Below the pieces are notes generated by a model. It was given only the letters and a program-made list of their open reading frames with translations. It was not told where the DNA came from and ran no database searches. This document shows positions 2,804 through 60,666 of a DNA stretch of 64,000 bases, piece by piece (positions within the stretch are counted from its first letter, which is position 1; each line of letters starts with the position of its first letter). The stretch covers positions 62,001 through 126,000 of the forward strand of contig JAQGBZ010000178.1 in NCBI GenBank assembly GCA_034687125.1, read 5' to 3'. Source of the DNA: Neelides folsomi (taxonomy: Eukaryota; Arthropoda; Collembola; Neelipleona; Neelidae). The position numbers and the translations under genes are program-made.

Positions 2804-5056
2804 TTATAATGCATCTTGCATAACAGAAACATATCTGAATATTTTAGATTTGATGTAAATTAATATTTCACTAATAAAAATCAATAAAGCTATGAATTGT
2901 CCAATTCCAAGTAAAATTACAATAAATGAAGCTTGTGAAATTGTAAATCCGCTCTTTTTAATATTTGCATTTTTTACAATTTTTCTTTTTCCTAACATTG
3001 AAGTTGCATCATCCAAAATATCAAGCCATTTATTCCACAAACCAGCTTTTTCAATATGAGAAACAGCTTTGTCCATTTTTTCTGTATTTATAAGTATTTA
3101 ATAATTATTATTACTTTAATACTGCACGTGAATATAGAGTAGTATGTATAAGGAAATTTTTGTTAAGACATTAAAACTGTATATGACTTAAAGGAAATTA
3201 CTTTTTAAAGGTGATCTCGGCTGAAGTCCAATACCAGTCCAAGTTGGAAACATTGAATCTTTAGAATTGATTAATTTACCTTTTCCGTTGGCATCGTTAG
3301 CAATGAAGCCTTGAAAATATTTATTCAAAAAGTCATAAGCGACACAGGAAACTTTTTTATTCACTGCTTCGTTCATACACTAAATGTTAAAGAACACAAT
3401 ACCGCTTTAAAATTAATAAGATATTTTTGTATTTAATAACAAATAATGATAGGTACATAAAATATTACATGTGTAAGATTTTCTGTAAATGGTAAATTGA
3501 AGGATTTTTTCAAAAATTGATTCCCAAAAGAATTATTCAATTTATCAAAAAAGTTATAAAGGACACTTCCTTTTAATTGCATAACTTTGATCTCATAATC
3601 CGAATCAACTAAATCTCGAAATGTTAATGGTGGGAAAATATAAGTTGGTTGTACAAGAAAAGAAATGATTTTTGACTTGTAGATTGAACCTAAAATTATT
3701 AAAACGATCAACCACGGACCAACTAAAAAATCGACTTTGTTTCGAATTCTTTTTTCTTTAACTGATTGGTCAATAGCCGGAAGAATAATCCGAGAAGCAA
3801 AAAAGCTCAAAAACGACAAATTGATTTTTCCCTTGTTTAAATCTATAAAAACATAGCAAATGAAAAAAGTTATTGAAAATGTAGTAAAAATTCCAATCCA
3901 AACTTTCATGTCAAATGGTGAAGAGAAAAACGAGAAATTTGGTTTGGTTTCTTTTGGGCCACCAACAGTAAAAATTATACTGTTACAAGAAAATATTTTA
4001 GAAAATTCAATCACATGCCATCGTCCATGTGTTATGGCAATTCCAATTGTAAAATCAGCTTTTTTATCAATTAAATCTTGAACTAAACCATTCCATTTCC
4101 CGCCCTTTTCAAATCCATATCCTGAACTGAATTTCTAATAAATAATATTTAAAATATTGATTATTAGTTATTCTTTAATTATACATAGTACAGGTAAGGT
4201 TTCCGTACTTATATAATATTGTGATAAAATTTATATCTAAATTATTTTCAATAAAATTATTTAATTTATTTAATTTTACTTTAAATTGATGTGTTGCATT
4301 AAACACTTTAGCCAATACCTCACCGCGTTCTTGTAAAACATAACCTTCAATTTTTTCGGGTTGTACCAAATAATAAGGTTTCATAAATTTATTTATTTTC
4401 CATGGTGAGGTCACGAGTTGTTGGATTTCTTTTCCTTCATCGTTCGACTCTTTCACTTGAACTGAAAAGGAAATTGATGAGAAATCGTTGAGAGGAGAGA
4501 AATTAATTGTGGGTTTGGTGTGTGGGCCGTGAAGAGTCCTCGTAATAGAAAACAAGTTCATTCCATTTCCTTCCATCAGAACAAACAATTCTCTTTTATT
4601 CTCTCCAGAGATCCAAAGGAAATCATCAGGAGATTGAGGGAATAAAGGAAGAAGCTCGACAAAATGAATTACAACATTCATTCTCCCGATTAAATATTTT
4701 TCAGCTGATCCATCTTTTTTCACAATTCTGTTCAATTCACTCCCATTGTTTCCTAACATTAAATGATTTTTATGTTTTAAAACATTTTTTGATAAATTGT
4801 AATCTTTGTTAAAAATAAAGTATGAATTAATATTATTAATGCTACAATTCTGTCCTTCGTAAATATGATCAAAGTTAAAATTTGTAATTTGGTAGTCGAA
4901 GTTTATTATAATTGAATAATTTGTAAAATGCAAGGTGTTAACTTTTTTATAATTTGTGAAATTAATCAAGGCATTAATAACATTGAAATTTAAAAGAAAT
5001 GCCAATATTGAAATTTTTGATAAAACTTGAAACCATTTAATGAAAAGTTTATGCAT
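2804..5056 (-). CDS. Ionotropic receptor (divergent IR), IR1
   Basis: Predicted ligand-gated cation channel of the iGluR-derived IR family, acting in chemosensory membranes. Exons (minus): 5056-4209, 4126-3469, 3379-3202 and 3081-2804; 1962 nt, 653 residues. MHKLFIKW at 5056 begins a clear signal peptide. An in-frame ATG at 5227 would add 57 residues ahead of it and is less likely. The S1 lobe has GKWNGLVQDL and ADFTIGIAITHGRWHVIEFS, keeping an arginine near the usual ligand-contact position. TM1 is around VWIGIFTTFSITFFICYVFI, followed by a pore-like stretch, TM2 (GPWLIVLIILGSIYKSK), the S2 lobe and TM3 (ASFIVILLGIGQFIALLIF). The exon 1/2 junction is the least certain: phase 2 is kept by donor AA|GTACGG and acceptor TTCAG|T. 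Family membership is secure; ligand is unknown. Confidence 0.85.
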
Positions 5057-5227
5057 TTTCCTTGTTTTTATTTTTTTTATTTGAAGAGAAGAAGAATTGT
5101 CACTTTGTTGAGAAAGTGGGGAAAGAGAAGAAGTGAGATCTTGGGTCGGTTTCCCCTTAGTTTTAAAAGGAAATGGGAGTTTGGAAAATAAATAGGGAAG
5201 GAAACACGATAACTCCATTACATCCAT

Positions 5228-6096
5228 CTTTTATTAGAAAGAAAACATTTTGGAGTGGAGAAAAAGAACAAAGGAATTATCTACAATAGCCATAATGCTC
5301 CCCAATCTATCCAAAAGTTTTAGAGACAAAGAAATTGAAAAAGAAAAAAGAACCTAAATTAATCAAATAAATTTGTGTCATGAAACTATATACTATGAAA
5401 AAATAATTTCACAAGATAATTACATAATCGAAACGGTTAAAAAAAAGTCTTAGCTATAACATAACTACATAGCCTACCATATTGCTAATTATTTATAATT
5501 TAATATAAGCCAAGGCCCATCCATGAAATAAAAATTTATTTTCCGATTATTAGAAGTTAACTATTTCGTTTTTTAAACCAAACTTTTGACGAAACTACAA
5601 ATGAAATAATTTCTAAAACTCCTTTAATCTTATTAGTTTTAATTTAACATTAATTTGGCGTTTTCCAATGTTTATTTACTTTCATCATTAGAAAATTTTT
5701 AGTATTGATTTAGAGTTTCATTTTTTCATCAAGTACTGCAAATATTCATAGAATAAAATTTGTGCAAACATGCTCTACTGAATTTGTGATCAATCTTGAT
5801 TGATTGGTTTTATTTCTTAGGCTTAATGAAATTTCGATTTTCAATCAGTCAATCAGACTATCCTTAGAACCAATGTGGTTTTTACTATGCAAACAAAATT
5901 AGATAGACGGTATATGCACTGTTGTTAATTAAAGAATTTCCTAAAAATAAACAATTCCTTTATTTGGTATTTAATCAATTATCCGATTAATCCAATAGAC
6001 CTTCAAAGAGGTGACTCATTTACAACTCCACGCACCCTTCAAGTTGAAGGCTTCAACTTATGGTTAGAATTAGAAATATAATATCGACATTCTGAA
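5228..6096. other. Intergenic flank upstream of IR1
   Basis: AT-rich sequence between the IR1 5' end and the MITE at 6097. I see no gene-like ORF and no RNA gene. It probably holds the IR1 promoter. Confidence 0.4.
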
Positions 6097-6477
6097 CTAT
6101 AGTCCATTCCCAAAATCGGTGCAGGTGAGTTTGAAAAACCCGCATATAATTTCCAGAGATACGAATTACAATTTAATGGTGACAATTAATTGTAGTATTG
6201 CATATACAATATTTAAACTAATTCATTACTCATCTACAAAATACATACAAAACTATTTCAATAACATTTCATTGCATTTGAATTTTACTGAAGTTTTAAT
6301 GCAAGAATAAAATAATGAAATTGAGGCCAAAATATAAAATAAACATTAAACATTTTCAAAACAATATAAATTAGCATACTACAATTAATAGTAACAGTGA
6401 AATTGTAATTCGTATCTCTGGAAATTATATGCGGGTTTTTTAAACTCACCTGCACCGATTTTGGGAATGAACTATAG
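6097..6477. mobile_element. MITE A: foldback element with ~78-bp inverted repeats
   Basis: Left arm 6097-6174 and right arm 6400-6477 are near-perfect reverse complements. Both run from a CTATAG end through GTYCATTCCC, AATCGGTGCAGG, AACCCGCATATAA and CCAGAGATACG to AATTACAATTT. The 225-bp centre has no transposase. The terminal CTATAGYYCATTC is shared with the element at 53585-53714, so this is a family. It is a non-autonomous DNA transposon; a TA target duplication hidden in CTATAG is possible but not provable here. Confidence 0.9.
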
Positions 6478-7552
6478 GTTGTTATTCTTTTTTAGAACGA
6501 AAAAACGAAAAAAATTAATAAGAATAAGGAATAACGAAAATGTGCAGTATACTGAGTGAGAGAATCCTCAGTTACCAGGTTTAGAGAAAGAAATTTATCT
6601 TAATAATTAATAACATTAAATAATACTTACATAAATACAGTTTTTTCTGTATAAAGAGATATATTATTCTACAATAGTAGATACCATGTATACTTGTACA
6701 TACTCTAGATATATATATATATATAATATTTATATTTAACTTTTTATAAAAATTATTTTACATTTATTAATCTTAAAAAACAACTTTTGGTTACTGCATC
6801 AGAGAAAATTACACTTAAATTGCACCGTTAAACATTTTAACCATAATAAAATGTTAAATTGTTTGACAAATTGTCATATAAAAATTGTCTATAGCTTTCC
6901 TATGCTAAAATAGTAGAATTGCTAAAGAGCTGTCAAAAACACCCGTGGTCCATTCTTCATATTTTATTACATGTTTAACTATGTGGAGCTGTTGAAGTTC
7001 AATAGTCTTTTCAACACCTTATGAAATTTCGATTTTACGTTCTTCCTAACACATACAAATTGCCTCACAATTCACATCGTCAAAACTCAAAAAAACATTA
7101 CTTAAATACACTTTACAATACTTTACATACACTTTACATGGTAAATAGGTCAAAAGGCAGAAGGTTTTATATGTTCCATTGAAAAAGATAAATTGTACAC
7201 CAAAGGTTGAATATAAGAAGGGAATTCCAGCAAAGGAATATTTATTGAAATTGCAAATAAATTCTTGTGTTATCTCTCAGCATGGAAATTTCAATTTTTT
7301 GATCAATTCAAAATTCAATACATTTCTATTAACTCATACAGCTTACAACGAATACTTTAAATACATAAATACAGTTATATTTTATTTAATGTTCAGTGTA
7401 TTAAAAGTATGTATTATATAAGTAATATTTTATATATTTATAGTATTTATAATATAATAGAACTAAACCAGGAATTCATACATTGACAATGACATGAATA
7501 AATTGAAATAGTTTGAATTACTTTAAATAAAACCAGCGAATATTTTCATGTA
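6478..7552. other. Intergenic, simple-sequence and AT-rich
   Basis: Non-coding stretch with a short (AT)n run near 6709-6726. I found no supportable gene; small ORFs here have random-looking composition. Confidence 0.4.
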
Positions 7553-23600: not shown

Positions 23601-26002
23601 TTGCTCATATGCGTAAAATTATATTTTATTCCCTGCGTTAGAAAAACTTATCTCTGCTCTTTCGGCCTTCTTTTCAATCTTTTATCAATATTTACCTTTG
23701 TTTATTAAAGATGACCTAAACTTTTAATATTACATTTAAAAAATTTAATTTTTCAATAAATTCATGAAAAGGTTTAAAATTCAAAAGGCGAAATTCATGA
23801 AAATTTGAAAAACGAAATTCATGAAAATTCAAAAAACGAAATTCATGAAAATTCAAAATCGAAATTTACAAAAGAAATTCCATAATTAAATTTCCAAAAT
23901 TCAAAATACTTGGCACTTTTTAGTTATATTAAATAAACCTGACTTTTTGCAATATTAAAATGAAGAAAAATTTGAATAAATTCCAGATTGGTGAGCATCG
24001 TGGTATGAGTGAAGAAAGCGTGGTTTGGACTTATGAAACGAAGGAAGGAGTTTGGACGGCGTACATCTGCTGCGACGCCTGTGTCCCTTCCAACCCCAAC
24101 TCCACTCTCAATTTCTGCCCAAAGTTCGAGGAAAGTTCTTCGTTCTGGTGTGGTTCAGATGGTCTCCTTGGTTTTCAACTTTCTCCTCAAACTCCGCTCC
24201 TCCGACAATTCGCCCACCTATGGAAATTTTCCCTCCTTTCCAACGAATGGATCAAAATGCCAAATGTAACGTTGAGCAAGAAATCTCTCAAAATCCTCAC
24301 AACACGTCCCTGCCGCTCAGTCGCTCCGGAAAATCCTCCACCTGAGCTCGAGACTTCCCTGTACATTTTGTGCCCGGTGGAGGCCAAGGGCGGGAACGAG
24401 CTGAACATTTTAAAATTTTCCCCTGCTTCTTCCTCAATCAATTTGCTCCCCTCGACCGTCACCCTCAATGTGGCTTTCAAGGACGGGGATTTATGGAGGG
24501 ATAAATCAAGGTCGGTGCTCAACGCGGTTTATTTGGCTGATTCCAACGCGACGGTTCTTTTGATTGCTTATGGAAGGCTGTTGGATTTATTTGTTGATTT
24601 GGGTGGGAGGTCGGGGGGATTGACGAGGGTGGAAAACGTGTGGAGGGGAAATAGTTTGCGGGAATTTCAAACCGTCGACTATTTTTACTCCCTGCAGATT
24701 ACGATGGGCGGGCGGAATTATTCTTTTTATATGGGAAATCCCAGGGGCGCCCCTTTACGATTTCAACCCAACGAGCGTGGAATTCCTAATGGGGAAGAAG
24801 AAAATGCTGGGCGGCTCGCGTTCTTCATTCGGTTACAAAGTGACGAAACTGTGTTTTTACCTCCCAGAGACGCCGACATGCTTTCACCCATCACTCCACA
24901 AACCTCAACCACTTTATTTAATTTGACTCAATTTGACACACACGTGACAATCTCACCGCCAATTTCAAATTTTTCAACACCACAACCAATTCCAAGTCAT
25001 TCAATGTCGCTCACAACTTCTAAATCTGCACAGCCAAATTTAAACCCTTCACTACCGCCAAATTTAAACCCTTCACCACCACCAAATTTCCCAACATCGC
25101 GAAATTTAAATTCTTCAACATGGCCAAATCTTCAAAAACCACCCAACAATACAAGTAACGAATTTGATGTGCCAACAAACAATAGACTTAAAGCCCAAAT
25201 CAAAATTCCGCCAAATGAATCAAACGAAATCAGTCAATCAAATGAAAATTCAAATTTACAACAAAACGCATCAATTAGCACTTCACATTCTTCAGAAATG
25301 TCAAAAGAAGTGCCAGTCAATCCAAAGCCAACACCAATCCAAACACAACACAAAAAAGCCCCCAGAGGGAAAAATTTAAAAATTGCGGGCTTAAATCGTC
25401 AAAATTTAAATGCTGCCCTCGGGCCCAATTCCCCCGACTTGAACCTCAATCATCATAAAATCGTCATTGGAACTTCACCTCCCTCTTCTACAGTTAAAAC
25501 TCCACGTGCAATGCCAATGGTCCGAAGGATTTCTGAAAATTCCCTCGAATCTTCACCGTCGGCCCTCACTTTAAAATTCCCCGCTCAAGTGTCGGAATTC
25601 CAGAGGGAAAATTTGCATGAACAGCATTTAGTCACCAGCACAACTCCTAAGCCTAAAGGGAAGACCAACGGGGAGGTTTTTGATTCCAAGGGAACCAATT
25701 CCCACAATACTTATTCCTCCTCTGAGGTCGTCATTGACTCCAATGATCAAACGAGGTTAATTAACTCGTCCGGTGGCTTCGGGTCCGGAAGTGAAAGTTC
25801 AAAGTCTATGATGTTCTTTTCCCTCAGTTTGAGCTTTTTCGGGGTTTTCGGTTTCATCCTTTTTGTCCGGCGGTGTGTCAAATGCCCGCCGGCCAATGAA
25901 AGTGAATTTGTTGCGGGAAGTAGTTTGAAAGAACTGCCGATGAGATATTCTTCAATTCCTGACGAGCTTTCGTTTCATCACAACCACACACCCATTGTAT
26001 GA
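8646..26002 (+). CDS. Kelch-motif type I membrane protein, secreted ectodomain
   Basis: Three exons: 8646-8970, 23142-23461 and 23987-26002; phases 1 and 0 match, giving 886 codons plus stop. Exon 1 starts MSTGTYLFFIFLIAPFSLSL, a signal peptide, then a charged linker. Exon 2 holds a kelch-like blade (FPSPRNFPSFW, WWMFGG, LSDLWTLDEELGSWRLV). Exon 3 begins with a second blade-like segment (LWKFSLLSNEWIKM) with several cysteines. A Ser/Thr/Asn/Pro-rich stalk follows (about residues 300-800, with repeats of PPNLNPS), then a membrane span at about 823-842 and a 44-residue cytoplasmic tail starting RRCVKC. Only two blades are visible, fewer than a closed kelch propeller needs, so more exons could lie in the 14-kb intron. 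I do not recognise the family. The exon 1 link rests on phase and signal-peptide logic. Confidence 0.7.
13182..13203. repeat. CA/CAC microsatellite
   Basis: A run of CA dinucleotides merging into CCA/CAC triplets in the long intron. A simple slippage repeat with no assigned function. Confidence 0.7.
16776..16830. repeat. Perfect 24-bp-arm palindrome (hairpin, 7-nt loop)
   Basis: 16776-16799 is the exact reverse complement of 16807-16830, with TGTATAC between. The sequence is AT-rich but not a simple AT repeat: the arms include TTGTAGAATATAAAT. It would form a strong hairpin in DNA or intronic RNA. No known element is recognised. Confidence 0.8.
23788..23875. repeat. Short tandem repeat, ~25-bp unit, in intron 2
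   Basis: About four imperfect copies of a unit containing GAAATTCATGAAAATTCAAA lie head to tail, ending about 110 bp before the exon 3 acceptor of the kelch-like gene. Likely replication slippage. Confidence 0.7.
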
Positions 26003-36103: not shown

Positions 36104-37256
36104 GATGAGCATTGCGTTTTAAAGGATTTTATATGTAATGGAATTAAAAGTTGCTCTCTGATGAATATCAATACGGAAAATGTTCACATGAAGAATTTAA
36201 ATGTCGTAATGGTAATTGAGTACCTAAGGATAAAATCTGCGATGGGGAAAACGATTGTCAAGATGGCATCAATGAAATGAATTCTCAATATTCATGTAAA
36301 AATGGCAATTGCGTCAACTGCTTGCAAATCTGCAATTTTGTAAATGACTGCGGGGATGGGAGTAATGATATAAATTTTAGAAATTGCACAGAAAATGATT
36401 ACAATTGTATTTATGGCAATACATCAACTGCAACACCAACAATTACAACCGCTACAAGAATTCCATATTCTTGTGGCATTTTACGATTCCAGTGTGATCA
36501 TTTTGATTTGATATAAAGATGTGATTTTCAACTGAATTGTTTGGATGGCTCAGATGAAATGAATTGCGAAGATCATTGCGAATATCATTTACCATTTAAT
36601 GTTAGTAGGTATTCTTATGTCTTGGGATATAAGTGTAAAACTGGAAGATGTGTACCATTGCGTTATAGATGCAATGGTGTTAATAATTGCGAAGATCAAT
36701 CAGATGAATTTGATTGCAATAGAACATTTCAAACATTAACAACACCTTTGCCAATTAAGCAGAATCTTACCATTGATTGCCATTCCATGAATTTCTATGC
36801 ATTAATAAAGATTGTATTCAATTCTTCAACAAATGTAATGGAGTTCCAAATTGTATTAATGGTTCAGATGAACTAAATTGGGAGAATTATTGTCGAATTG
36901 GAACCCAAGATGGATTTAAATGTAAAAATTACAAATGCATTGATATGAACCTTAAATGTAATAATTTTAACATTTGCGATGATGGTTCCAATGAATTTGG
37001 ATGTTTTCCATGCCAACCAAACGAATTTAAATGCAGAGATGGAAAATGCATTGATTCAAATTTGGTCTGTAATTCTCAAAATAATTGCCAAGATAAATCT
37101 GATGAATTTGAGTGTAAAGGTGAAAATTAATGCGAAAATGGAACTTCCAATTTAAATTGCGAATCAAGCTCAAGTTCATTTTTTATTTATATTATTTTAA
37201 TTTTTGGTATTGTTGTGTTTGTCAATATTTTTATTGTTGTTCTAAGAAATTCTTAA
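36104..37256 (+). pseudogene. LDLa-repeat membrane protein pseudogene
   Basis: Seven or eight LDL-receptor class A modules (six cysteines, calcium-binding acidic motif DGSDE) can be followed by eye, ending with a membrane span (SFFIYIILIFGIVVFVNIFIVV) and stop at 37256. The frame is broken repeatedly: a frameshift near 36158, TGA in place of a module cysteine at 36218 (after RNGN), TAA near 36514, a frameshift near 36790 between DCHSMNF and CINKDC, and TAA at 37128. Modules such as the one with YSYVLGYKCKTGRCVPL match the module with YDSLGYKCKNVKCVPM in the next gene, so this is a tandem paralogue that has decayed. Confidence 0.8.
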
Positions 37257-37328: not shown

Positions 37329-37412
37329 CAGGGTGGGCCATGAGTATTTAAGCATCTTTCTTTTTTAAATGAACAATCGTATAGAAAAGAAATATACTTA
37401 TGGCCCACTCTG
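37329..37412. mobile_element. 84-bp mini-MITE, TA-flanked, CAGGGTGGGCC ends
   Basis: Begins CAGGGTGGGCCATGAGTAT and ends with the imperfect reverse complement ATACTTATGGCCCACTCTG, with TA on both sides (37327-37328 and 37413-37414). End sequence and TA duplication fit a Tc1/mariner-type non-autonomous element. Confidence 0.85.
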
Positions 37413-37732
37413 TATATTATGTATCATCTAACTAAATATTTATATTATAATGTAATTTAATTCATATTTGGTAATGTTTAATGAATTTGTTCTAAATATA
37501 TCAATTCATAAATACATATGATAAATTTATAAATGACATGAATGATTAATGGTTAGTGATTATGATTAGAAATAAAGCATTAAAAGCATGTTATTTATAA
37601 TTGCAAATAATAATAAAAAACGATGTACTTGTAAGCTCTCTGTTAAATTTTTCCTAGATTAAAATAATAAGCAACATAAACGAGATTTAATGTGTAAGAA
37701 ATTATAAGGAACATTGAAGATACCGGGTGGCC

Positions 37733-37798
37733 CAGAGTTATCTGAGTTTTTTCATAGCAACGTATATTAAAAAAACTCGTTAACTCGGGGCCACCTTG
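37733..37798. mobile_element. 66-bp mini-MITE, TA-flanked, CCGGGTGGCCC ends
   Basis: Left arm CCGGGTGGCCCAGAGTTATC with TGAGTTTTTT, right arm AAAAAAACTCGTTAACTCGG with GGCCACCTTG, flanked by TA at 37731-37732 and 37799-37800. Almost wholly inverted repeat. Its ends resemble the elements at 37329 and 41253. Confidence 0.85.
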
Positions 37799-38228
37799 TA
37801 TATGGTAATTGAAGATGATGAAAAGTTCATAATAAATAAAAATTAATATTTGAATATGATTAAAAAATTAATACCCAATGTTGCATATTTTATTTAATGT
37901 ATCGTTCTTATAATTATAATTTATAAATGTTATCTCTATTAACCAAGCGTAAAAATTTATTTCTAGATATTTATATATATATTGAATTTAAAAAATCGAT
38001 AGTGATAACAAAATTGAAATACTTAATGTGTAAATATAATTTATATAATTAAACAGGCATTTTAGTTCCATCAGTCTTTACATGAACGTTCAAAGAGAAG
38101 TCATGTCCTTTAATTTTTTTATTAATTTATTATCACTACATATTAGTATTTAAGTCATACAAATCGAATATAATATTCAGCTCGCAATAAAAAAAATTTG
38201 GTGCTTATTTTATTGTAAATAAGTAATA

Positions 38229-41216
38229 ATGAATAGCATACAACTTAATAGCACTAATTCTACATTTGGAAATTATCATGATTTTCCATTTATTGCTCAA
38301 ATTAATTTTCGAAAAAGTGGCGAAAATTTTCGGGTTTGTGACGGAACGATTTTAACTCCTTTGTTGGTCCTCGCCGCTGCACATTGTTTGTATGGGAGAA
38401 ACGATTCCGACTTTGAAATTACTATAAATGATTATCCACGGGAAATTCTAATTTCACATAAAACCTCGAATTTCTCAAAATTGAATCTTTTTAAACAAGT
38501 AAAAGCTCCAAAGAAAGTTTACATCCATCCAATGTATAACGCAAGTTCCATTCCTCTTCACGACATTGCAATTATCGAATTCAATGATGAATTTGTATTT
38601 CGTCCTTTAATGACTTGGATCGCATCAAACCATTTTATACCAGGTAAATAATAAATAAAATGAATCATCACCTGTATGAAAGCAATAATATTATTGATTA
38701 AATATGTTATTTAATATATATTTTATACATTCTTTAATAATTAAATACTGCGTATTATATACAGCGTCACCGTAAAAAGGGTACAAATTCGTTCGCATAT
38801 CAATAAATCTAGCTTAAATAATATCCTTTATTTCGAAAGGAACGATACATTATTATATAAGTAGCTTAATTTAACTGTTATAATATACTACGCCTTTGAG
38901 GTCACGATGTGCTCACCCGTAAAATTATTATTAATACCAAAAATTTATTATATTTATCTATAGATCAACTTAACGCGGTATTACTTGGGTGGGAAAAGAA
39001 CGAGACAAAGATTAACAGAAAAGAAATTAAAAAAGTGAACATTAAATTATTAAGTAGGCATGGCTGCAATGAAATAATTTCTAAACTGTTTGATTACCAA
39101 ATTCCAAACATTTCAAATTGGATCATTTGCGGGGAATATGAAAACATTAAAGATGATATTTGTGATAAAAATTATGAGTGGGGACCTTTGCTTTGAAAAA
39201 GTAAACTCGTATTATTATTATTATAAAATTCCAAAATTGTCATTTATAAATACGTATTCTTCTATGGAACAAATTTTAATATTAAATTTATTTACATTTA
39301 TATTCTAGAAGCTTTTACCCGATTGGTAGCATATCCCAACGATTTTTTGTGTGGCTTGCCACTTTTGGAGCCAAGAACATTTTGCTCATCAAATAATTCA
39401 AAGTTTATTAGTTTTTATTCTTCTATGGGAAATTACTTTCCCTGGATCTCAAATAGAAATTACAAGTAATAAAGAAAACATTTTACTAAAATTTAAAATT
39501 ATTTTAATGCTATAATATTATTCAATTATATATGTATATAGTCTAATACTTAAGTATATTATATTGTAGCATTATAAATTATAATGTTACAATGCTGTAT
39601 ATATTTTATGAAAAATCGGTATATAATTTGAAATCATTATTTCATTTCATTAAATTATCATTAATTAAAAATATTTTAGAAAATCATATCAACCAACGAT
39701 ACCAAGAATTCCATGTGAAGAAGATCAATTTGAATGTGTTAACTTGAAATGTATAAATAATTCTTCCCTCTGTGACTATAAAAATGATTGCGGTGATGGA
39801 TCAGACGAAATGAAGTGTGGAAAATGTCATGGAAATTATCTTTGCAAAAATAATAAATGTATATTTCATCAATTTGTTTGTGATCTTGAGAACGATTGTG
39901 GTGACGGATCGGATGAAATTGGATGTTCACCATGCCAACAAGAAGAATTTAAATGTAAAAATGGGAATTGTATTAATTCAACTTTTGTTTGCAACAATTT
40001 TAATGATTGTGGAGATCGGTCAGATGAAACAAGATGTACAACTTGCGTTGGAGGTCTTTTTCGATGTCCAAACACTGACATTTGCCTCAATCAAACATCA
40101 CTTTGTAATGGAATCAAAGATTGCAAAGATGGCTCAGATGAATTTAATTGCGATCCATGCAAGAATGAACAATTCAAATGTAAAAATGAGAGATGCATTA
40201 GCAAACTTTTCGTCTGTGATTATGACAATGATTGTTTTGATTTTTCTGATGAATTTAATTGTGGAATTTGTAATGCAAATGAGATGAGATGTCGAAGTGC
40301 GAATAACATAACGTGCCTTGACTCAACATTGATTTGTAATGGAGTTAAAGATTGTCCGAATGGCCTTGATGAACTTGGATGTAAAAACTGCGGAAATAGG
40401 GAATTTTCGTGTTTATCAGATGGAAAATGCGTTTCACTCTTTGCATTGTGTAACGAATATAAAAATTGCATAGATGGTTCAGATTTATACAATTGTGGTA
40501 ATTGTTCCCTTGATGAATTTACATGCCGAAATGGTATATGCTTACCAAAGAATAAAACCTGCGACGGGGAAAATGATTGTAAGGATGGGACCGATGAAAT
40601 GAATTGTCCAAATTGTCCTTCATCACTTCTATTTACATGTAAAAATGGAAACTGTATAAAGTATGATGAAACCTGTAATCTGGTAAATGACTGTGGAGAT
40701 GGAAGCGATGAAAAAAATTGTAGAAATTGTATAGAAAACAATTCCACGTGCAATCATGGCATTCCAAAAACCACAACTACAACACCTAAACCAATTGGTA
40801 CTTCAAAATGCGGTCCTTATAATTTTGAGTGTGATAACAAAGACTGCATTGATTCAAATTTCAAATGTGATAATGATCGGGACTGTTCGGATGGCTCTGA
40901 TGAAAAAGACTGCGAAAATCATTGCCGATTTATATCACCATATCTATCACCATATGATTCTCTTGGATATAAATGTAAAAATGTAAAATGTGTCCCAATG
41001 AATAATCGATGCAATGGAATGAATGATTGTGGAGATCGACCTGACGAACTTGATTGCTTTACGACAGAGAGTGAACGCGAAAACGGAACTTATAATGATT
41101 CTCCAGTCCAGCTCAACTCCAGTTTTCATTTATACCATAATTATAATTGCCATTGTTTTTTTCTCTTAATTGTTGATTATATGGTCAAGTTCATTTTAAA
41201 ACGCTTTATTGTTTGA
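38229..41216 (+). CDS. Trypsin-like domain followed by 11 LDLa repeats
   Basis: Exons 38229-38643, 38964-39200, 39309-39465 and 39680-41216; every junction keeps phase (1, 1, 2), so protease and LDLa parts form one gene. The chymotrypsin-fold part has His52 (LVLAAAHCLYG) and Asp112 (HDIAIIEF). The GDSGGPL loop is replaced by KNYEWGPL, so the catalytic serine is lost: a serine protease homologue, not an enzyme. A TGA follows GPLL at 39194-39196, exactly where a cysteine normally stands; the chain resumes with KKAFTRLVAYPND and ends YFPWIS. Eleven LDLa modules and a Thr-rich linker follow. No signal peptide is seen, so a 5' exon may be missing. With a nonsense codon this may be a pseudogene, or an assembly error. 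Confidence 0.6.
39702..41065 (+). repeat. Eleven LDL-receptor class A modules
   Basis: Domain repeat within the fourth exon of the preceding gene. Each module of about 38 residues has six cysteines and most have the calcium-box pattern DCxDGSDE, for example NDCGDGSDEMKC and RDCSDGSDEKDC. Modules 5 and 6 deviate (DCFDFSDEF, CPNGLDE), and module 7 has SDLYNC, so calcium binding may be weaker there. A Thr/Pro linker (KTTTTTPKPIG) separates module 9 from 10. LDLa modules bind ligands or lipoproteins. Confidence 0.9.
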
Positions 41217-41252
41217 ACTTAATTATACATTTCACATAATATCTACTTATAT

Positions 41253-41395
41253 CGGGTGGGCCAGAGGTCTACACGTATTTTTAATTTCGCTAAAATTGGC
41301 AGGTACATACTTTATATGCCGTATAATATAAGTAAAACTTCATATTATTCAATTGGCTATTTAAGCATCTTTATTTGAGCAGAGATATACTCCGC
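41253..41395. mobile_element. Degenerate copy of the GGGTGGGCC mini-MITE
   Basis: Starts CGGGTGGGCCAGAGG after TAT, like the left ends at 37329 and 37733. Internal TATTTAAGCATCTTT and ATATACT match the interior and right side of the 37329 element. No clean right inverted repeat remains. A decayed relative. Confidence 0.4.
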
Positions 41396-41457
41396 ATGAG
41401 ATTAACCCTTATATCATTCTAATATTGAAAGATTAAAATAATATTTCTAATAATCCG

Positions 41458-41568
41458 AATCAAGCTCAAGTTCATTTTTTGTTTATATTATTATAATTTT
41501 TGGTACTGCTGTATTTGTCATAGTTGTTTTTGTTGTGGCCAAGAAATTCTTTATTTACTTGGGCTAAC
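41458..41568 (+). pseudogene. Orphan membrane-segment exon, copy 2
   Basis: An open frame ending TAA at 41568 encodes ESSSSSFFVYIIIIFGTAVF then VIVVFVVAKKFFIYLG. It closely matches the membrane tail of the LDLa pseudogene at about 37159-37256 (ESSSSSFFIYIILIFGIVVF). It lies 3' of the intact LDLa array and could be an alternative last exon or a left-over duplicate. Confidence 0.55.
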
Positions 41569-41640
41569 TAAAATTGAATAAATCATTCTATCTTTCAATT
41601 AAACGTTTTATTGCAAATATTTGTAAAATCGTTTGTGATA

Positions 41641-41751
41641 AAAATAATGATTTATATTATAATTTTTGGAATTGTTGTTTTGATCATAATTGTTGCTGTA
41701 ATAGCCAAGAAATTTTACTTTAAATATATTATGTATAATTTTAATTATTAG
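41641..41751 (+). pseudogene. Orphan membrane-segment exon, copy 3
   Basis: A frame encoding SFVIKIMIYIIIFGIVVLII then IVAVIAKKFYFKY, closed by TAG near 41751. The IYIIIFGIVV core and AKKF juxtamembrane residues match the copy at 41458. Probably another duplicate of the LDLa gene's 3' membrane exon. Confidence 0.45.
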
Positions 41752-41978
41752 GTATGTTGGTTCTTTCCGAATATAAATAACAATCATTAAAAATAAAATA
41801 CTTAGGTTGTAATAAAACATTGCGGTCTAATTGATTACATAAATAACATTTTTAATAATTAATTAATAAGAGTTCATTAATATGTAAGAGCTTATTTATC
41901 CAGTTAAAATTATTGCATTGATAAGTACATTGAAATTAAGGTAAAAGGACAAACATTGTATTATCATAATTATATAGG

Positions 41979-42050
41979 TACTTATGATACATACAGTTAC
42001 ATTTGCCATTGTTATATCTATTTTAGTTATTCTTGTTACTCTAGGATAAT
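41979..42050 (+). other. Possible fourth membrane-segment exon
   Basis: After a TATATAG acceptor-like site, an open frame reads VLMIHTVTFAIVISILVILV then TLG and a TAA at 42048-42050. Hydrophobic like copies 1-3 but without clear sequence identity, so it may be coincidence in AT-rich DNA. Confidence 0.25.
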
Positions 42051-42375
42051 TACTAATTGACTGCTTTATCAAATTGGATGACTGTATGACATTATGAAAT
42101 AGGTGTTTGATAACTTTTGATTCTATTATTATAGGATTAGTAGAAGCAATAACAATTTTGATTATTTAAAAGACAATACTTGTTTTATAATATGGAGTAT
42201 GTACTTCAGTACCAAAAAGAATATTCGAAAGTATAAAACATAAAAATTAACAATATATGATGCACCATTTTATTTTACTTTATTGCTTGTAACCTTAAAA
42301 TAAATAAATTATAAAAATACTAATAGTTTTAAAAACATACAACTTTTGTTTAATTAATAAAATCGCAATTTAAAA

Positions 42376-45347
42376 ATGATAAAAATAATTTTCTTTTCTT
42401 TAATTTTGACGCTTACCAGTGTCCATGGGTAATTTTCATCATTTATTTTTAATAATTATTTATTTAAAATTATTTAAAGAGTAATATTCAGAATTTACTG
42501 TTAATTTAAAGTAAATCACTTTGGACATGGGAATGTGTTGAAGACACAATTGATGGCCCTTCATGTCAAAGAAGATTAAACCTCAATGAAGAAAATCAAA
42601 TTTTTGTCGAAAATATTCCCATGGAAGTTTGTTGGTTGACTTGCGGAAAATTTGGTTCACTTTGGCCTTTCCCAACAGGACAAGTAAATTAATAATTAAA
42701 TTTAAAATATTGAGTATAAATTTATAAAATAAAATACGACATTTATATACCTTTAATATTTAATTTTTTATATTCACCGAAGACAGCCTTAAGCAAAAAA
42801 GTAGTAGCAATAAATTCCAATGAAATTAAGTTGTCAAAAATTCAATCACCGAATCAAGATATCGATCAAATGATTCAAAAAGCATTTATGAGTTTCAACA
42901 ATTCAGTTCATTCTGTAAATATTCATTCTTAATTAATGTAATTAATCAAATATTTTAGTTAATAAGTTATTTAATTATTTATAGTTAATTGAAAGCGAAT
43001 TTGAAAATCCAGAAATTAAAAAAGGTTTGAAAATAGAAGTTTTTGTTACAAGTCCGCTAACGTCATTGAACATTTTGGATAATATTGATGAATCCTATAC
43101 ATTGACATTACTGGTAAACATTTTAACATAAACGCATTTAATATAATTGCGAGTATATAGTACAGGTATTACTATTATTTACTATTAAAATTGCTTATAT
43201 ATATATATTATTTTATCATATCAAACACTTCATCGTGCAGGATAATGAAAATGAAGAATTAACAGCTTCCATCGGGGCAGAAACTTTTTTTGGTGCGCGT
43301 CATGCGTTTGAAACACTTTCGCAGCTTATAGCTTATGACAATGAAAATTCATCTTTAAAAGTAAAAAAATACTTTATTTTTTATGAATATGCGTATTTAT
43401 TATATGTAAACTCTTACAATGCTGACAAGTTTTTTTCCCATTTCAGATAATTAATGGTGGTTCGATTGTTGATAAACCAAAATTTTCATATCGAGGCGTG
43501 CTCATCGATACTGGAAGAAATTATATTCCCTTTAAAGCATTACGTAGAATGGTCGATGGTCTCGCAGCAAATAAACTTAACGTTTTACATTGGCATTTAA
43601 CAGAAAGCAATTCATTTCTATTTGAATCTAAGCGCGTCCCACAAGTATACCTTATATGGTTTTGATCCGATTACACATACCTAAATATACATCACACATA
43701 CTTAAAATAATTTTTCCAATAATTTTTTAATGATGAATTTTTTTTATTAATTTAGATGAGCAGATTTGGAAGTTTTGATTCTAAAAAAATATACAAAGAA
43801 TCGGAAATTAAAGAATTTATTTCTTATGCACTTCAACAAGGAGTGAAAATAATTCCGGAATTAGATGCACCCTCACATGCTGGTAAACATTTGTTTGTTA
43901 AAATTAAGTAAACTCCAATTAATTTATTGTTCCTTATCAAAATATCATAACTTAATTATTTCAGGTAATGGTTGGCAATGGGGAAAATTAAACGGATTGG
44001 GAGATTTGGCAGTTTGTGTTGAAGCCCAACCTTATAGAGATTATTGCATTCAACCTCCTTGTGGACAATTAAATCCATTGAATGATAATATGTACACCAT
44101 TTTGGGTTAACTCTTAATAAATTTAACTCATTAAATTATTTTTAGTTTATTGAAGAATTAGAGATCTTATATGTGAAGGCACTTTTGAAAACACCAAATT
44201 TTGTGTTATTTGAATAGGAGATTTATACAAAGATTTTCTCGACACATTTGACCAAGATGTGTTTCATATGGGCGGTGACGAAGTTTCATTTAAATGTTGG
44301 AATTCAGTTGAAGATATTACTAAATGGACAAACGAGACAGGAAATAGTTTGATGGATCTTTGGGGAGTTTTCCAAGAACGAGCATTTTTAAAATTAAAGG
44401 AAGCAAATGGAAATGTTAAACCGATAGTTTGGACATCAGAAATGACAAATTCTGCTAGGAAATTTTTGAATCCATCTGAATATATTATTCAAGTTTGGAG
44501 CAATTGTATACAAATATTTTATATTGTAACGTTAATTCTCTTAATTATCATTTTCTCTTAATTATTCAAAGCAGTATATTACATTTAATTTTAACACAGC
44601 AAGTGATGGAGTCATAAAAGAAATTTTAGATGAAGGATACAAAGTTATTTTCTCTAACAACGACACAATGTATTTGGATCATGGTTTTGGACCTTGGCGT
44701 GGAACTGAAAACAAAGCAAAAATGATATTTTGGCAGGTATTTAAAGTTGATTTATTTAATTGTTATAAATATACGAGTTGAGCATAAAATATCATTTTAT
44801 TCAATTCTTATTTCTATCTGCTTTTGTTTCACTTTATAAAAATAATTATTCATTTCCAATTTTTATAGACACTTTATGGACATGATATTCTCAAAAATGT
44901 CGAAAATTCAATTGGAAAGACCAAAACGGAGCAACTTTATAATTCGGGAAATATTTTAGGTGGTGAAGCAACACTTTGGTCTGAAAAAGTAATATACCAT
45001 ACTTACCCTGAAATATAATAAATAATGTATTATACTTCAAATTTGAATATACCATATTGTAAATATTTTCATAACACTAAATAAAAATAAGTATGCAGTT
45101 TTACAAGGTTACAACTTTAATGTGAAAAATTATTATCCAGGGAGACGAACATAACATGGATTTTAAATTGTGGCCAAGATCCTCTGGTTTGGCTGAACGA
45201 CTTTGGAGCAATCCAGAAGAACCAACGAGATTTGCATATCCAAGATTAATCCAGCAAAGGGAAAGAATGCTCAAAAGAGGAATTTCCTCTGACACTCTTT
45301 TACCTGAAGCTTGCCGATACATTTGGGGATTTTGCGATGATTTGTGA
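42376..45347 (+). CDS. Beta-N-acetylhexosaminidase, GH20 (chitooligosaccharidolytic type)
   Basis: Removes terminal N-acetylglucosamine from chitin oligosaccharides or glycans; secreted. Twelve exons: 42376-42428, 42512-42683, 42783-42914, 42985-43113, 43241-43360, 43447-43644, 43756-43882, 43965-44105, 44218-44505, 44600-44736, 44869-44988 and 45141-45347; 1824 nt, 607 residues, all phases match. MIKIIFFSLILTLTSVHG is a signal peptide. The family core is plain: RGVLIDTGRNY, NVLHWHLTES, PELDAPSHAG, and the catalytic pair Asp378-Glu379 in HMGGDEVS, then the C-terminal ERLWSNP. TESNSF replaces the more usual TDSQSF. Length is normal and no lesion is seen. It converges on the gene at 45608, whose 3' end lies 261 bp beyond the stop. 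Confidence 0.95.
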
Positions 45348-50193: not shown

Positions 50194-51954
50194 TTAATTA
50201 AAAAATAATATTTCCTTTAAAAATATCAAAATATCAATTAATAATAAAACTGACAACAAATAAAACACCGTTGATACTCTTGAATTTATTCCGATTTTTT
50301 CAATTTCATTTTCCGAATTTGTATTATTTTGCTTTCTATTCATACTATATCTGAAAAGATAATTTTCATTTTTAAAAAGGAAACTTATAATTCCAAAGTC
50401 TCTCCATTTAAGCAAAGTGCGAGTCAACCATTGTCGTCCATAACCTTCAAAAATCCAAGTTCGGTCTGATCTTAAAGATTCTCCTTTAATCGCCATTGGT
50501 TTGCAATTAATTCCAGAGCTTGAGTTAGAGTGTTTATAAGAATTCAAAATCGCTTCAGCTTTGTTTTCTTGAATCGGCATGATTATTTTGATTTTTGGAT
50601 CTAATAACAATTTTCTCATACCATTCCGGTCCAATGTTTCATTTATTTGGTAAATGCTATCATTTAGTTTATCCAATATTTTAAATTTATTAAATTCAAT
50701 TCTATAAAACACAATGTTAAACAAATCATCAGAACTTATAGGGCTGTACAATTTATAATTTCTCTCAACCAATTCTTTTATGTTGCTCATTGAAACTTCC
50801 AATCGTGGTTGAATTACATTTGAAGTAAACTCGGCTTCATAAGTGTTTGACGTAACAATTGCAAACAAAGTAAAAATAATTTTGAATCTGCATTTAAAAT
50901 TTGATGGATCTTGCCGAACCAAATTAGAAAAAAGGACAATTATATTATTAAATATATTATTATTTTTTGAAGTAAAGATCATTAAGATGGCTAACATTAC
51001 TATCAATAGGAATATTGAAATCCAAGTGTCGAATTTAAAACCTGTGGCCCAAAGAGAATAATCTTGTGCTTCAATTTTATAATCAAAATCGCAGTATGTA
51101 ATTACGTAATTTATGCTATTTTGTGTAAAGTAGGATTTATTGGTTTTATAAACAAATGGCCATGAATTTTCAGAAAAAAATAAACTTGTGTAATATTTTG
51201 AAATTTTTCCAAAATGTGCACTTGGAAAATATAAAGCTGTGAAATTATAAATAACACCAAGTTGTTCAATAACGCGATAATTAGCCAAACAATAAGGATA
51301 TGTTCTCCCCTTATAATTAGTCGCTAGAGGACTCAAACAATATTTTTTGTCGGCTTCTTCAAAATTCGAATCTTGAACGTCTATTACATTATTATCAAAA
51401 TTATTATTGAATTGATAATTGAAATTAAACAATCCATCAATTTTCTGTAAATGAATATTTCGGTAAGGACAAAATAAATAATAATTTGTTGTTGCATTTT
51501 GCACATTAATAAAATAAATTTTACTGTTTGAGAGTTTGGCAGCTTTAATAATAATATTTTGATCAAAATGGCTTAAAATTGCCAAAAATAAAATAATTGA
51601 CGAGTTGTAAATATAATTTGTATATTTTGATAATCCAAATGAATATTCGTTTAAATTATCATTGAATGAAATTTGACATCTTGAATCTTTAAACTTTAGT
51701 GTGATATTCATTATTTTTTCAGAGTAGTTTTTATAGTTGATTTTGGAATCAAAGTCAAGATGTTGGATTAGAAAAGGATCAGATTTTTGACTCAATTTTA
51801 TTGCAAATTCATTTTGATCAACTTTATTCAATGCTATTAATTTATTGCAATTTTCAAATTTATTCAACAAATCAATTCTTTTAAGCTGTTCAAATGACAA
51901 ATTTATCCAAATTGTTGTTAATGCTAAATAAATCAAAAGTGTTTTTAAATTCAT
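50194..51954 (-). CDS. Ionotropic receptor (divergent IR), intronless, IR2
   Basis: Single-exon gene of 586 residues for an IR-type ion channel. MNLKTLLIYLALTTIWINLS is a signal peptide. A long Asn/Ile/Tyr-rich ligand-binding part precedes TM1 (about 309-328, TWISIFLLIVMLAILMIF). A pore-like segment and TM2 (about 357-375) follow. The S2 lobe has ELVERNYKLYSPISSDDLF and a last lobe with RQWLTRTLLKWRDFG, then TM3 (about 562-582). Unlike IR1, IR3 and IR4 it has no introns, suggesting an old retrocopy or intron loss. The canonical iGluR ligand residues are not recognisable, which is common in divergent IRs. No internal lesion. Confidence 0.85.
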   Translation of the reverse strand: MNLKTLLIYLALTTIWINLSFEQLKRIDLLNKFENCNKLIALNKVDQNEFAIKLSQKSDPFLIQHLDFDSKINYKNYSEKIMNITLKFKDSRCQISFNDNLNEYSFGLSKYTNYIYNSSIILFLAILSHFDQNIIIKAAKLSNSKIYFINVQNATTNYYLFCPYRNIHLQKIDGLFNFNYQFNNNFDNNVIDVQDSNFEEADKKYCLSPLATNYKGRTYPYCLANYRVIEQLGVIYNFTALYFPSAHFGKISKYYTSLFFSENSWPFVYKTNKSYFTQNSINYVITYCDFDYKIEAQDYSLWATGFKFDTWISIFLLIVMLAILMIFTSKNNNIFNNIIVLFSNLVRQDPSNFKCRFKIIFTLFAIVTSNTYEAEFTSNVIQPRLEVSMSNIKELVERNYKLYSPISSDDLFNIVFYRIEFNKFKILDKLNDSIYQINETLDRNGMRKLLLDPKIKIIMPIQENKAEAILNSYKHSNSSSGINCKPMAIKGESLRSDRTWIFEGYGRQWLTRTLLKWRDFGIISFLFKNENYLFRYSMNRKQNNTNSENEIEKIGINSRVSTVFYLLSVLLLIDILIFLKEILFFN

Positions 51955-52819
51955 TTTTTATTAAGAGAAATTGCTAATTCTTAATATCAAAATAATTTAA
52001 TTTTTTTAAACTTAATGTTCCCAGAATCAATTTCTCATTTTCTTTTATATTCCAATTGGCAATTAATAATTTAACCTTATATTATTCATTAAATCATTAA
52101 TTATTCATTAATTCTTTGACTTTGGTTAAATGTTAAATCAAATAAATTGAATGTAATGTAATAATTCATTTAATATTACCATTGTGTTGTTAGAATTTAG
52201 TTCCTTGACGTCAATACAACTTGCCACATTTTCTTTTATTATGCAAGATGTTTATATAGGCAATCAAGCACGAAGTCAAAATAAATTGTTTGAGTTTACT
52301 ATTGAATTTTTAATTACATAAAGTAATTAATAATAATTCACAAATGTAGTTTTTTTATAATAACTTAAGTGAATTTGTGAATATCATTATATAAATACAA
52401 ATATAACATTAACATCACGCGGGTACGTTTAAGTTTCCAGTTTCCATATAACTTTTTTCTTAAACACATTTTCCAATTGGAAAATAAATATTAGATATGT
52501 TATAGCAAAATTATTGTTATTCAAATGAACAGATCTATCTTTTAATTGTGGTTTTGCATTTGAAAAAGTTTTTTTTAAAGTAAGCCATATCCGAATTTCT
52601 CAATAATAGAGATAATATTAGACCAATATCAAATTACACCTGATAAATATATACACTTTAAAATATAAAACTAAAAATCTGTTCATTCGAATAACAATAA
52701 TTTTGCTAGTATATAAGAAGCGAAAGTTATTTCTGTTATTTCATTTATTTCTAACTTTATCAATCATGAAAAAAGTAGAAAAGTACACACAAATTTACTT
52801 TGAGGACATGTAAATTCAC
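51955..52819. other. Upstream region of IR2
   Basis: AT-rich non-coding DNA. AATTATTGTTATTCAAATGAACAGAT at 52511-52536 (given here only by position: 52511-52536) recurs inverted near 52679-52705, making a ~195-bp foldback that may be another small MITE. No gene. Confidence 0.4.
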
Positions 52820-58128: not shown

Positions 58129-60666
58129 TTACAATAATTTTATTCCAAGTTCAATCAAAAATATTATTCCAGATAATGTAAAAACAATGGATAAAAATAA
58201 AAACAGATCTTTTATGTGTTGTAAACGAATTAAAATTTCTTCACGATTTTTACCAAAATTCACTTTCATATTGTTCATAAATTCATTAAATTGTTCATTT
58301 TCTTTAGAAGATAAAAACAGTTGTGTGTAATTGAGAAAGGAGGTTTTTGCTAATTGGTTTTTCTTTTGGAATTCTAGATATATTTTCCGTCCCTCGTTTT
58401 TTGAACTTCTCAATAAAAAATACTCCCTATTGAAATGACATAATATTAATTCCAAATATGCAGTTATATTTATCATCTCAAATTAATTTAATTCATGCTA
58501 TGCCTATGTATTGCTATATATATAACGTAGAGTTATAATTTTATTTACCATTCTTGGAAAAGTCCTGCTTGATTAATTCGGCCAATAAAGTTATTTATTA
58601 AAGTTTTATATTTAAACCCTTTTCTAAAAGCCCAACCACTTTTTAATTCAATCATTTCTTTTGGAGATGAAAACCAAATGTCGCTTAATTTGTTTTTTAA
58701 CCCAACGCTTGCTTGAACTTTTACTGAATTAATTTTGTTAAAAAAGTTAAACCCAATACACGAAGTTTGTCGAATTAGAGGGAAAACAAAACAATCGTTC
58801 ACATTTGTTCTTTTTGAGTTGTTGCTAAGCCTTTCGAGAACTTTATCCAAAATTGGATTCCCTATAAAACATACAGAGTTCTTTAAAAGCCAAATATTTA
58901 AATCAATCAATTTGCTTTATATTTTAAATAGAAAATATTGATTGCATTTACTTTTAAAATTATTTAAATTACAAAATTGTATATGGAAATTTAATATCCT
59001 TTAAAGAATTTACCAAATTGCTCTTGTTGAATATTTATGTAACATGAAATGTTATAACTTGACGTTAAAAGTTCAGAAAGATTTTTTGGATGCTCTCCAG
59101 GCTTCAATTCAATTATAAAGTCAAATAACTTGGATTTATAAGAAGATCCAATAACAATAGCCGAAATCCACCAAAAACCAATCAAAAATTTCAGTTCATT
59201 ATTAATTCTTAAAAATTGTGGTTGTTCAAAAATGGCTCCAAATAATTTTAGAATGTCTCCATATTCTAATAAAAAGTGAATTTCGGAGATTTATCATTTA
59301 ATGAATTTTAAAATTTAAAATTGCATTTTATTAATTTTATTACTATTGTCTTAGTATTGTACCTTTATAAAGAACTAACATTTTAAATTTATTTCTCGTA
59401 AATCTTAGACCAAAACTTAAAATTGTAAGGGCTAAAAAACTCATAGCAATTAAAATCCATACTTTGGTTGAATATGGATTAACAAGAAGTTCAATTAAAT
59501 ATTTTGATTTTCTGGTATTTGAAATATAAAAATTTATATAATCGTAGTACACTGGACTTGTATATTCAAGCTCCCATGGAAAATCATGAAATGGAATTAA
59601 ATTCGTTGCTACGTGCAGTTGTTGTGTATTCAATAATCCCACGAGTCCATCCCACTCATTTCCAACTTTAGTTCCAATTTTCTGAAATTATAATTATTGT
59701 AAATATTGTCAATAAAAATCAAATAATTACTATTATGTAGAACCATATTTAATTTTTAAAACTTACCAAAACTTCAGTAAGTCTTGCATTTCTACATTGA
59801 AAATTCATATGTTTACAAAGGGTTTGGGTTGGGAATTCTTGCATATCAATTGTAGTTGATGTTGAATCTAACCCACTTACAAGACTTGACAGATTTGTAT
59901 AAGGAGCTTCAAAATTGCTAACAGCTTTTTGAATTGCGCTCCAAGATTTTATACTGAATGGGTTGCCAAATATCAATTCGCCTTTAAAATTCAATTATTT
60001 TACAAATTCAATTACTTCCACATACCTTCATTACATTCATTTAAATAGTATGCATTGTATATTTAACTGGTATTTGCTATTTTATAAATTTATAATTAAA
60101 TATGTTGTACTTGAATTATATTTCAATGAATTCATTTCAGGCATCCAATTAAATGAAACATCGCAAAGTTCATAAAAATCTACAAAACGATTTCTTTTCC
60201 ATGTGCCTCTTAACACAAAAAGTGAATTGAAATTTTTTGATAGAATATTGCACAATTCTAAATCATCCATTGTGTCACTTTTATAAATTAGCCTAATATT
60301 GTTAGGAGAATATTTTTTGTACTGAAAATGACAAAAAATTATTATTAAGCATTTGATTGAGTTTTCAGAACATTTCAATTAATTAAAGTATTATTCATGT
60401 GTATCCAATTGTTATGATTAGTTTACTTTGATAAATGTTATTAAATTTTTAGTTTGGTTTTCCCAATTTATATCAAATTGAATGTTTAGTGCTGAGTTTT
60501 TATGTTTTATAACAAATGGTATAAATTTATAAACTGAAAAATATGGATTTAAAAGAATATTTATATTTTGAAAATTTTCATTGTGTTTTGTAAATCTAAT
60601 TCTTATTTTCCCGTTTGTTAAAACTGATAGATTAATTAACAAACCACAAAAAATTAGGAATTTCAT
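58129..60666 (-). CDS. Ionotropic receptor (divergent IR), IR4
   Basis: Seven exons on the minus strand: 60666-60427, 60321-60111, 59981-59767, 59681-59363, 59265-59014, 58861-58549 and 58426-58129; 1848 nt, 615 residues, all phases match. MKFLIFCGLLINLSVLTNG is a signal peptide. S1 has GNEWDGLVGLLNTQQLHVAT; the usual ligand arginine is absent (IPFHDFPWELEYTSP). TM1 is KVWILIAMSFLALTILSFGL, TM2 FLIGFWWISAIVIGSSYKSK. S2 has SSPKEMIELKSGWAFRKGF, a common IR signature, and TM3 is FLFLSIVFTLSGIIFLIEL. Exon 6 and 7 proteins match IR5 closely. It is tail-to-tail with IR3. Confidence 0.88.

Follow-up and report, generated by a model that had tools for sequence, protein, structure and literature searches.

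Does Neelides folsomi encode a protein in which a trypsin-like domain stands ahead of an array of LDLa modules, and can the gene that suggests this order still be translated in full? The question is raised by four exons in a stretch of 64,000 nucleotides (here called the window), which corresponds to positions 62001-126000 of contig C178 in a genome assembly of 75.1 Mb and 840 contigs and has a GC content of 28.8%. The exons are as follows.

Exon 1, 38229..38643, plus strand: first half of the trypsin-like domain, matched by the Pfam Trypsin profile for this exon alone (7.7e-10, 39.4 bits).
Exon 2, 38964..39200, plus strand: second part of the trypsin-like domain, with the KNYEWGPLL loop; 55% identity to the homologous exon of C377a, a paralogue.
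Exon 3, 39309..39465, plus strand: end of the trypsin-like domain (FISFYSSMGNYFPWI), with phase 1 at its start and phase 2 at its end; aligned to C377a.
Exon 4, 39680..41216, plus strand: 11 LDLa modules, with a Thr/Pro linker ahead of the last two and a degenerate 3' end.

The cumulative intron phases are 1, 1 and 2, with AG acceptors on exons 2-4 and GT donors on exons 1-3 (GTAAAT, phase 1, on exon 1). When the protease exons were joined, with an X at an internal stop codon, the Pfam Trypsin profile was matched at 3.9e-15 over residues 15-208 (56.7 bits against a cut-off of 20.6), and this part of the gene belongs by that curated profile to the S1 (trypsin) fold family; exon 2 searched alone against Pfam gave no match. 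Exon 4 passed the cut-off of Ldl_recept_a (PF00057) in 11 stretches (1.1e-94, 310.8 bits) and shows 64% identity with C377a across query residues 1-353. The domain search of the joined protein, together with the paralogues described below, thus upholds the original prediction of a trypsin-like fold followed by 11 LDLa modules. Among solved structures, the best match to the window protease part was PDB 2xxl (Gram-positive specific serine protease, 3e-7), which we take to be the clip-domain protease Grass of Drosophila; unlike the window gene, it is annotated as a protease, and the part that matches contains no LDLa array.

With regard to catalysis, exon 1 retains the AAHC and HDIAI motifs, and the positions of the catalytic His (38382-38384) and Asp (38562-38564) are kept. 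The serine loop reads KNYEWGPL (39167-39190), in which Glu (39176-39178) occupies the position of the catalytic Ser. The triad of an active S1 protease (His, Asp, Ser) is therefore incomplete, and the gene does not encode a normal serine protease, as had been proposed from this loop.

The order of a trypsin-like domain and then an LDLa array is real and is common to a family of genes in this genome. By searching the genome with the window protease part (E up to 10, weaker matches being taken as other trypsins), relatives were found at C377 (two), C576, C709, C332 (two), C254, C232, C148, C171 and C579, which together with the window gene make 12 loci; ten of these were modelled, the broken C377b and C576 being left out. 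In all ten models (window gene included), an LDLa exon lies downstream of the protease exons in the same orientation; in C579 and C148 it has just one or two modules. The phases are 1-1-2 in nine of the ten, the remaining model, C332b, having 1-1 and no third intron. Splice sites were picked from candidates that keep the phase, with regard to consensus score and to the site used in relatives, and were not always those with the top score. This procedure makes the phase agree across each intron, but it does not impose the values 1, 1 and 2 that the models share. The in-phase junction search rejected frames that contain stops, and window junctions via 39200 are for that reason absent from its list. 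In a phylogenetic tree, a branch (97/94) separates the ten family domains from five other trypsins of this genome, the five being a small sample given at least 177 trypsin matches, and the window gene groups with C377a (100/100) on a long branch.

The family is mixed in its catalytic motifs. GDSGGP is retained in six of the ten modelled members (C332a, C332b, C254, C232, C148 and C579) and lost in C709, C171, C377a and the window gene, and judging from their sequences these four look catalytically dead. C254 has coagulation factor IX as its best S1 match (1.4e-23). In C377a, His and Asp have been lost too, and a Pfam search at E 0.01 reached its LDLa modules (10 stretches) and did not recognise Trypsin, so that the identity of its protease domain is drawn from its likeness to the window gene.

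The premise that trypsin-family proteins mostly carry LDLa modules N-terminal to the protease fits the tabulated architectures. The modular serine proteases ModSP and HP14 have the order LDLa-CCP-protease (PMC10036332), and SmSP1 has LDLa ahead of the protease (PMC3967958). ModSP and HP14 resemble the window gene in combining LDLa modules and an S1 domain in one protein, but their order is reversed and no CCP was found in the scanned window exons. The same genome has LDLa ahead of the protease at no fewer than four loci (C136, C39, C438 and C122), which are ModSP-like by eye. On the other hand, the premise has exceptions. Nudel of Drosophila is given as TM-3LDLA-PD-2-4LDLA-PLD-3/4LDLA (PMC10036332), and is treated also in PMC4676143 and PMC1761132. 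Like the family, it carries LDLa modules on the C-terminal side of a protease fold, in its case after both the protease and the protease-like domain, so the order in the window is unusual and not unprecedented. Nudel differs in its N-terminal TM, its N-terminal LDLa modules and its two protease domains, whereas the window gene has a single protease-like domain with nothing found ahead of it, and the LDLa array forms the rest of the protein. LDLa modules and a TM before the first protease domain, as in Nudel, were not found in the window gene, the LDLa modules upstream of it being part of a separate broken copy; nor was there a second protease-like domain after the LDLa modules, since exon 4 contains LDLa only and no protease match lies further downstream in the same contig stretch. 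Outside the family, the protease also comes first at at least three loci (C472, C486 and C74, the last by position), which differ from the family in their short C-terminal runs of 2-3 LDLa modules on separate exons; C472 and C486 differ further in a signal-peptide-like start and a separate branch in the tree.

Whether the window copy can be expressed in full is a different matter. An in-frame TGA (39194-39196, plus strand) lies inside exon 2 directly after KNYEWGPLL, one codon and one base ahead of the exon end, and the frame of the intact paralogue C377a continues through the matching site. A further lesion was found at the 3' end by three-frame translation and comparison with the tail of C377a.

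TM-like tail remnant, 41107..41169, plus strand: out of frame with the LDLa array and cut short by TAA.

The end of C377a is a strongly hydrophobic segment (19-residue hydropathy 3.57) with a short basic tail, against which the tail of the window gene reaches 1.76 when read in frame and 2.05 when read in the shifted one. Because of the TGA and the shifted tail, the window gene as assembled is unable to encode the full protein. Thus, the four phase-matched exons originally proposed stand as to coordinates, phases and splice sites, but not as an intact frame. Selenocysteine at the TGA was considered and rejected, as an Rfam scan of 38000-44000 (E up to 10) detected no SECIS; the sole match in this interval was a snoRNA (E 5.2), far under the gathering score.

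The locus is also surrounded by fragments of its own kind, which point to repeated tandem duplication.

Broken upstream tandem copy, 36220..37256, plus strand: LDLa modules with stops and a frame change, with its own TM-like tail and stop.
Lone TM-like tail copy, 41454..41567, plus strand: reads SESSSSSFFVYIIIIFGTAVFVIVVFVVAKKFF.
Second lone TM-like tail copy, 41647..41751, plus strand.

The upstream fragment ends 973 bases ahead of the exon 1 ATG, and searching with the protease part gave no protease exon that would belong to it. LDLa modules upstream of 38229 in the same transcript had been named as what would speak against the proposed order; such modules are literally present, but their frame is broken and they have their own tail and stop, which rules them out as the 5' part of the window gene and marks them as a separate copy. 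Besides the window gene, there are three damaged copies (C377b, C576 and this fragment). A short repeated motif, GGGTGGGCCA or GGGTGGCCCA, was seen by eye near the duplicated tails, at about 37330-37420, 37720-37800 and 41250-41270, and may represent a mobile element connected with the duplications.

Several other features were noted in the surroundings. A beta-hexosaminidase (GH20) gene lies directly downstream (42380-45000, plus strand; 1.3e-14 on one exon). Two ionotropic-receptor-like ORFs are present on the minus strand (3436-4134 and 50197-51957), with matches to Lig_chan-Glu_bd (2.7e-8) and Lig_chan (1.9e-5, under the cut-off), and further pieces of this type were seen by eye near 58.1-59.7 kb and 63.2 kb; positions 58132-58482 gave no Pfam match. 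In the genome, 7tm_6 had only three matches, the best at 8e-8; COX1 was detected, and Dioxygenase_C, a family reported from spider mites, gave no match. A 689-codon ORF (23933-26002, plus strand) lies in a stretch of 45% GC inside the 29% GC window; it had no Pfam match and shows a C-terminal hydrophobic segment by eye.

How long the window gene has been impaired, if it is, can be approached by comparison with C377a. The pairwise dN/dS is 0.33 (dN 0.31, dS 0.96), with 0.38 for the protease and 0.29 for the LDLa part (shifted tail included), which indicates that the pair has long been under constraint, the value being an average across both copies and not of the window branch alone. The joined frame of 782 letters has a single internal stop and the LDLa frame is open for 515 codons, and for these reasons the window gene may remain in use. 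Neutral drift was simulated from the C377a frame, with 200 runs per distance. At 0.02 substitutions per site, 20% of the runs ended with at most one stop, and at 0.05 or more no run did; any loss would therefore be recent, constraint having ended recently or not at all. In terms of a pseudogene, disabling lesions are present (the TGA in exon 2 and the shifted tail), and a long-term loss of constraint is not seen in the pairwise dN/dS and the single stop.

These data bear differently on the possible readings of the locus. That the protease exons and the LDLa exon are two neighbouring genes is hardly credible, because their order and phase-2 junction recur in nine of the ten models and a continuous frame in C332b (L047, minus strand, 5053-7278) spans both the protease end and the LDLa array, which largely refutes this reading and removes the concern that two genes were joined by eye. 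A working gene that splices around the stop is quite improbable, even though both routes are in phase: joining exon 1 to exon 3 gives 703 letters without an internal stop, and a donor at 39053 (TAA followed by GTAGGC) bypasses the TGA and removes the Ser loop. Either would leave a shortened protease-like domain with the LDLa array, but both drop a segment that aligns well with intact C377a, and skipping exon 2 leaves a partial barrel. Somewhat better placed, though still unlikely, is the reading of a functional gene for a complete protease-homologue LDLa receptor, in which both lesions come from sequencing or assembly errors or from a null allele of one individual. The low dN/dS, the open LDLa frame and the presence of one stop only, when neutral decay soon yields several, all agree with it; it has to account for two separate lesions in a locus ringed by broken copies. 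We consider it probable that a duplicating trypsin-like-then-LDLa family has recently lost this member through disabling lesions, which we infer to be present in the living animal as well, and that an intact member would be a membrane-anchored, calcium-dependent, non-catalytic binding protein.

For the subfamily formed by the window gene and C377a, this preferred reading suggests the following. The protease site appears dead, and the intact member ends in a TM-like segment with a short basic tail. It would most likely be a binding protein that is anchored in the membrane and dependent on calcium, with LDLa modules that may capture a ligand and a protease-like domain that could offer a second, non-catalytic binding surface. 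The suggestion of an adaptor or receptor is plausible for intact C377a with its TM-like end, but the window copy itself has a premature stop and a shifted tail.

The N-termini of the family are difficult to reconcile with such a role. In all ten models a conserved start Met, preceded by an in-frame stop, lies shortly ahead of the protease domain, and hydropathy (not a trained predictor) indicated no signal peptide in any of them. The best N-terminal 10-residue hydropathy ranged from -0.06 (window gene) to 1.83 (C332b), compared with 2.08-2.96 in three secreted trypsin controls from the same genome, C332b being near the lowest control. By this measure of hydropathy only, the window gene does not show the signal peptide of a type I membrane receptor. 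A hidden signal-peptide exon within 1.2 kb upstream was found in none of nine of the ten loci (for C332a, only 470 bases lie upstream), by a weak test that admitted only GTAA/GTGA donors and hydropathy of at least 2.0; C332b had one candidate, of a kind that 30% of C332b shuffles yield too. In C332a, the sequence from the upstream in-frame stop through IING, the motif with which the protease domain begins, contains no AG. The disulfides of LDLa and trypsin domains require an oxidising place, and the lack of a recognisable signal peptide fits badly with a cell-surface protein.

Other members of the family appear to continue beyond the LDLa array. CRAL-TRIO exons were found at an intron-like distance after the LDLa exons in four of the ten models (C709, C254, C232 and C171; L046, L048, L049 and L051), and a thirteenth locus, C623 (L053), has LDLa and then CRAL-TRIO exons, its protease part being unseen and its 5' side lying at the contig end. 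The joined models of C232 (Trypsin 5.6e-42, 5 LDLa, CRAL_TRIO 2.5e-16) and C709 (Trypsin 3.7e-30, 5 LDLa, CRAL_TRIO 8.3e-14) match all three domains in Pfam. C254 and C171 were modelled just to the start of the CRAL-TRIO part, and for these two loci and C623 the domain is recognised by the resemblance of their exons to those of C709. In favour of a single transcript, the segment ahead of the CRAL-TRIO exon in C709 lies within the LDLa frame and is joined by donor 4207 to acceptor 4311 in phase 0; in C254 and C232 (models) and in C171 and C623 (reading of the sequence), a small exon intervenes, phase 1 in and phase 0 out. This small exon has no Met to start a separate gene in C254 and C623; a Met is present in C232 and C171, which counts against a single transcript. 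A further point against it is that the in-phase junction search, blind to the small exon, led to different or poor junctions in four of the five CRAL-TRIO loci. A separate CRAL-TRIO relative, C411 (L072, about 1988-2500), was observed by eye to have a signal-peptide-like start (MFKLCIVAAIVFLGQKAQG); a secreted SEC14-type protein is therefore likely in this animal, and tandem genes instead of a fusion are a real possibility. Separate CRAL-TRIO genes behind the LDLa exons are nevertheless disfavoured, and single-chain trypsin-LDLa-CRAL-TRIO fusion genes are possible. No description of a fusion of serine protease, LDLa and CRAL-TRIO was found in the open-licence papers searched. In C148 (L050, minus strand), the protease-LDLa exon continues in frame into a Pro/Glu-rich stretch with a weak VWC match (0.0016, under the cut-off), perhaps a second kind of chimera.

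It may be suggested, tentatively and with considerable doubt, that the family made chains of trypsin-like, LDLa and CRAL-TRIO (SEC14-type) domains, in which an array capturing a ligand or lipoprotein would be tethered to a lipid-transfer domain and a protease or dead-protease head and exported without an ordinary signal peptide, the window gene being a membrane-anchored side branch. If this is true, a protein of this kind could draw lipid from a particle that it has bound and carry it extracellularly, and its protease domain would be a sensor or switch.

The window copy is in the first place a caution, since taken alone it looks like a working gene, an impression that the stop and the shifted tail call into question. 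Proteins that combine S1 and LDLa domains are common, usually with LDLa ahead of the protease, and this family reverses the order. With its reversed order, the loss of Ser in four of ten members and an apparent CRAL-TRIO domain in some, it is a case in which the conversion of protease genes into genes for receptors or carriers can be examined.
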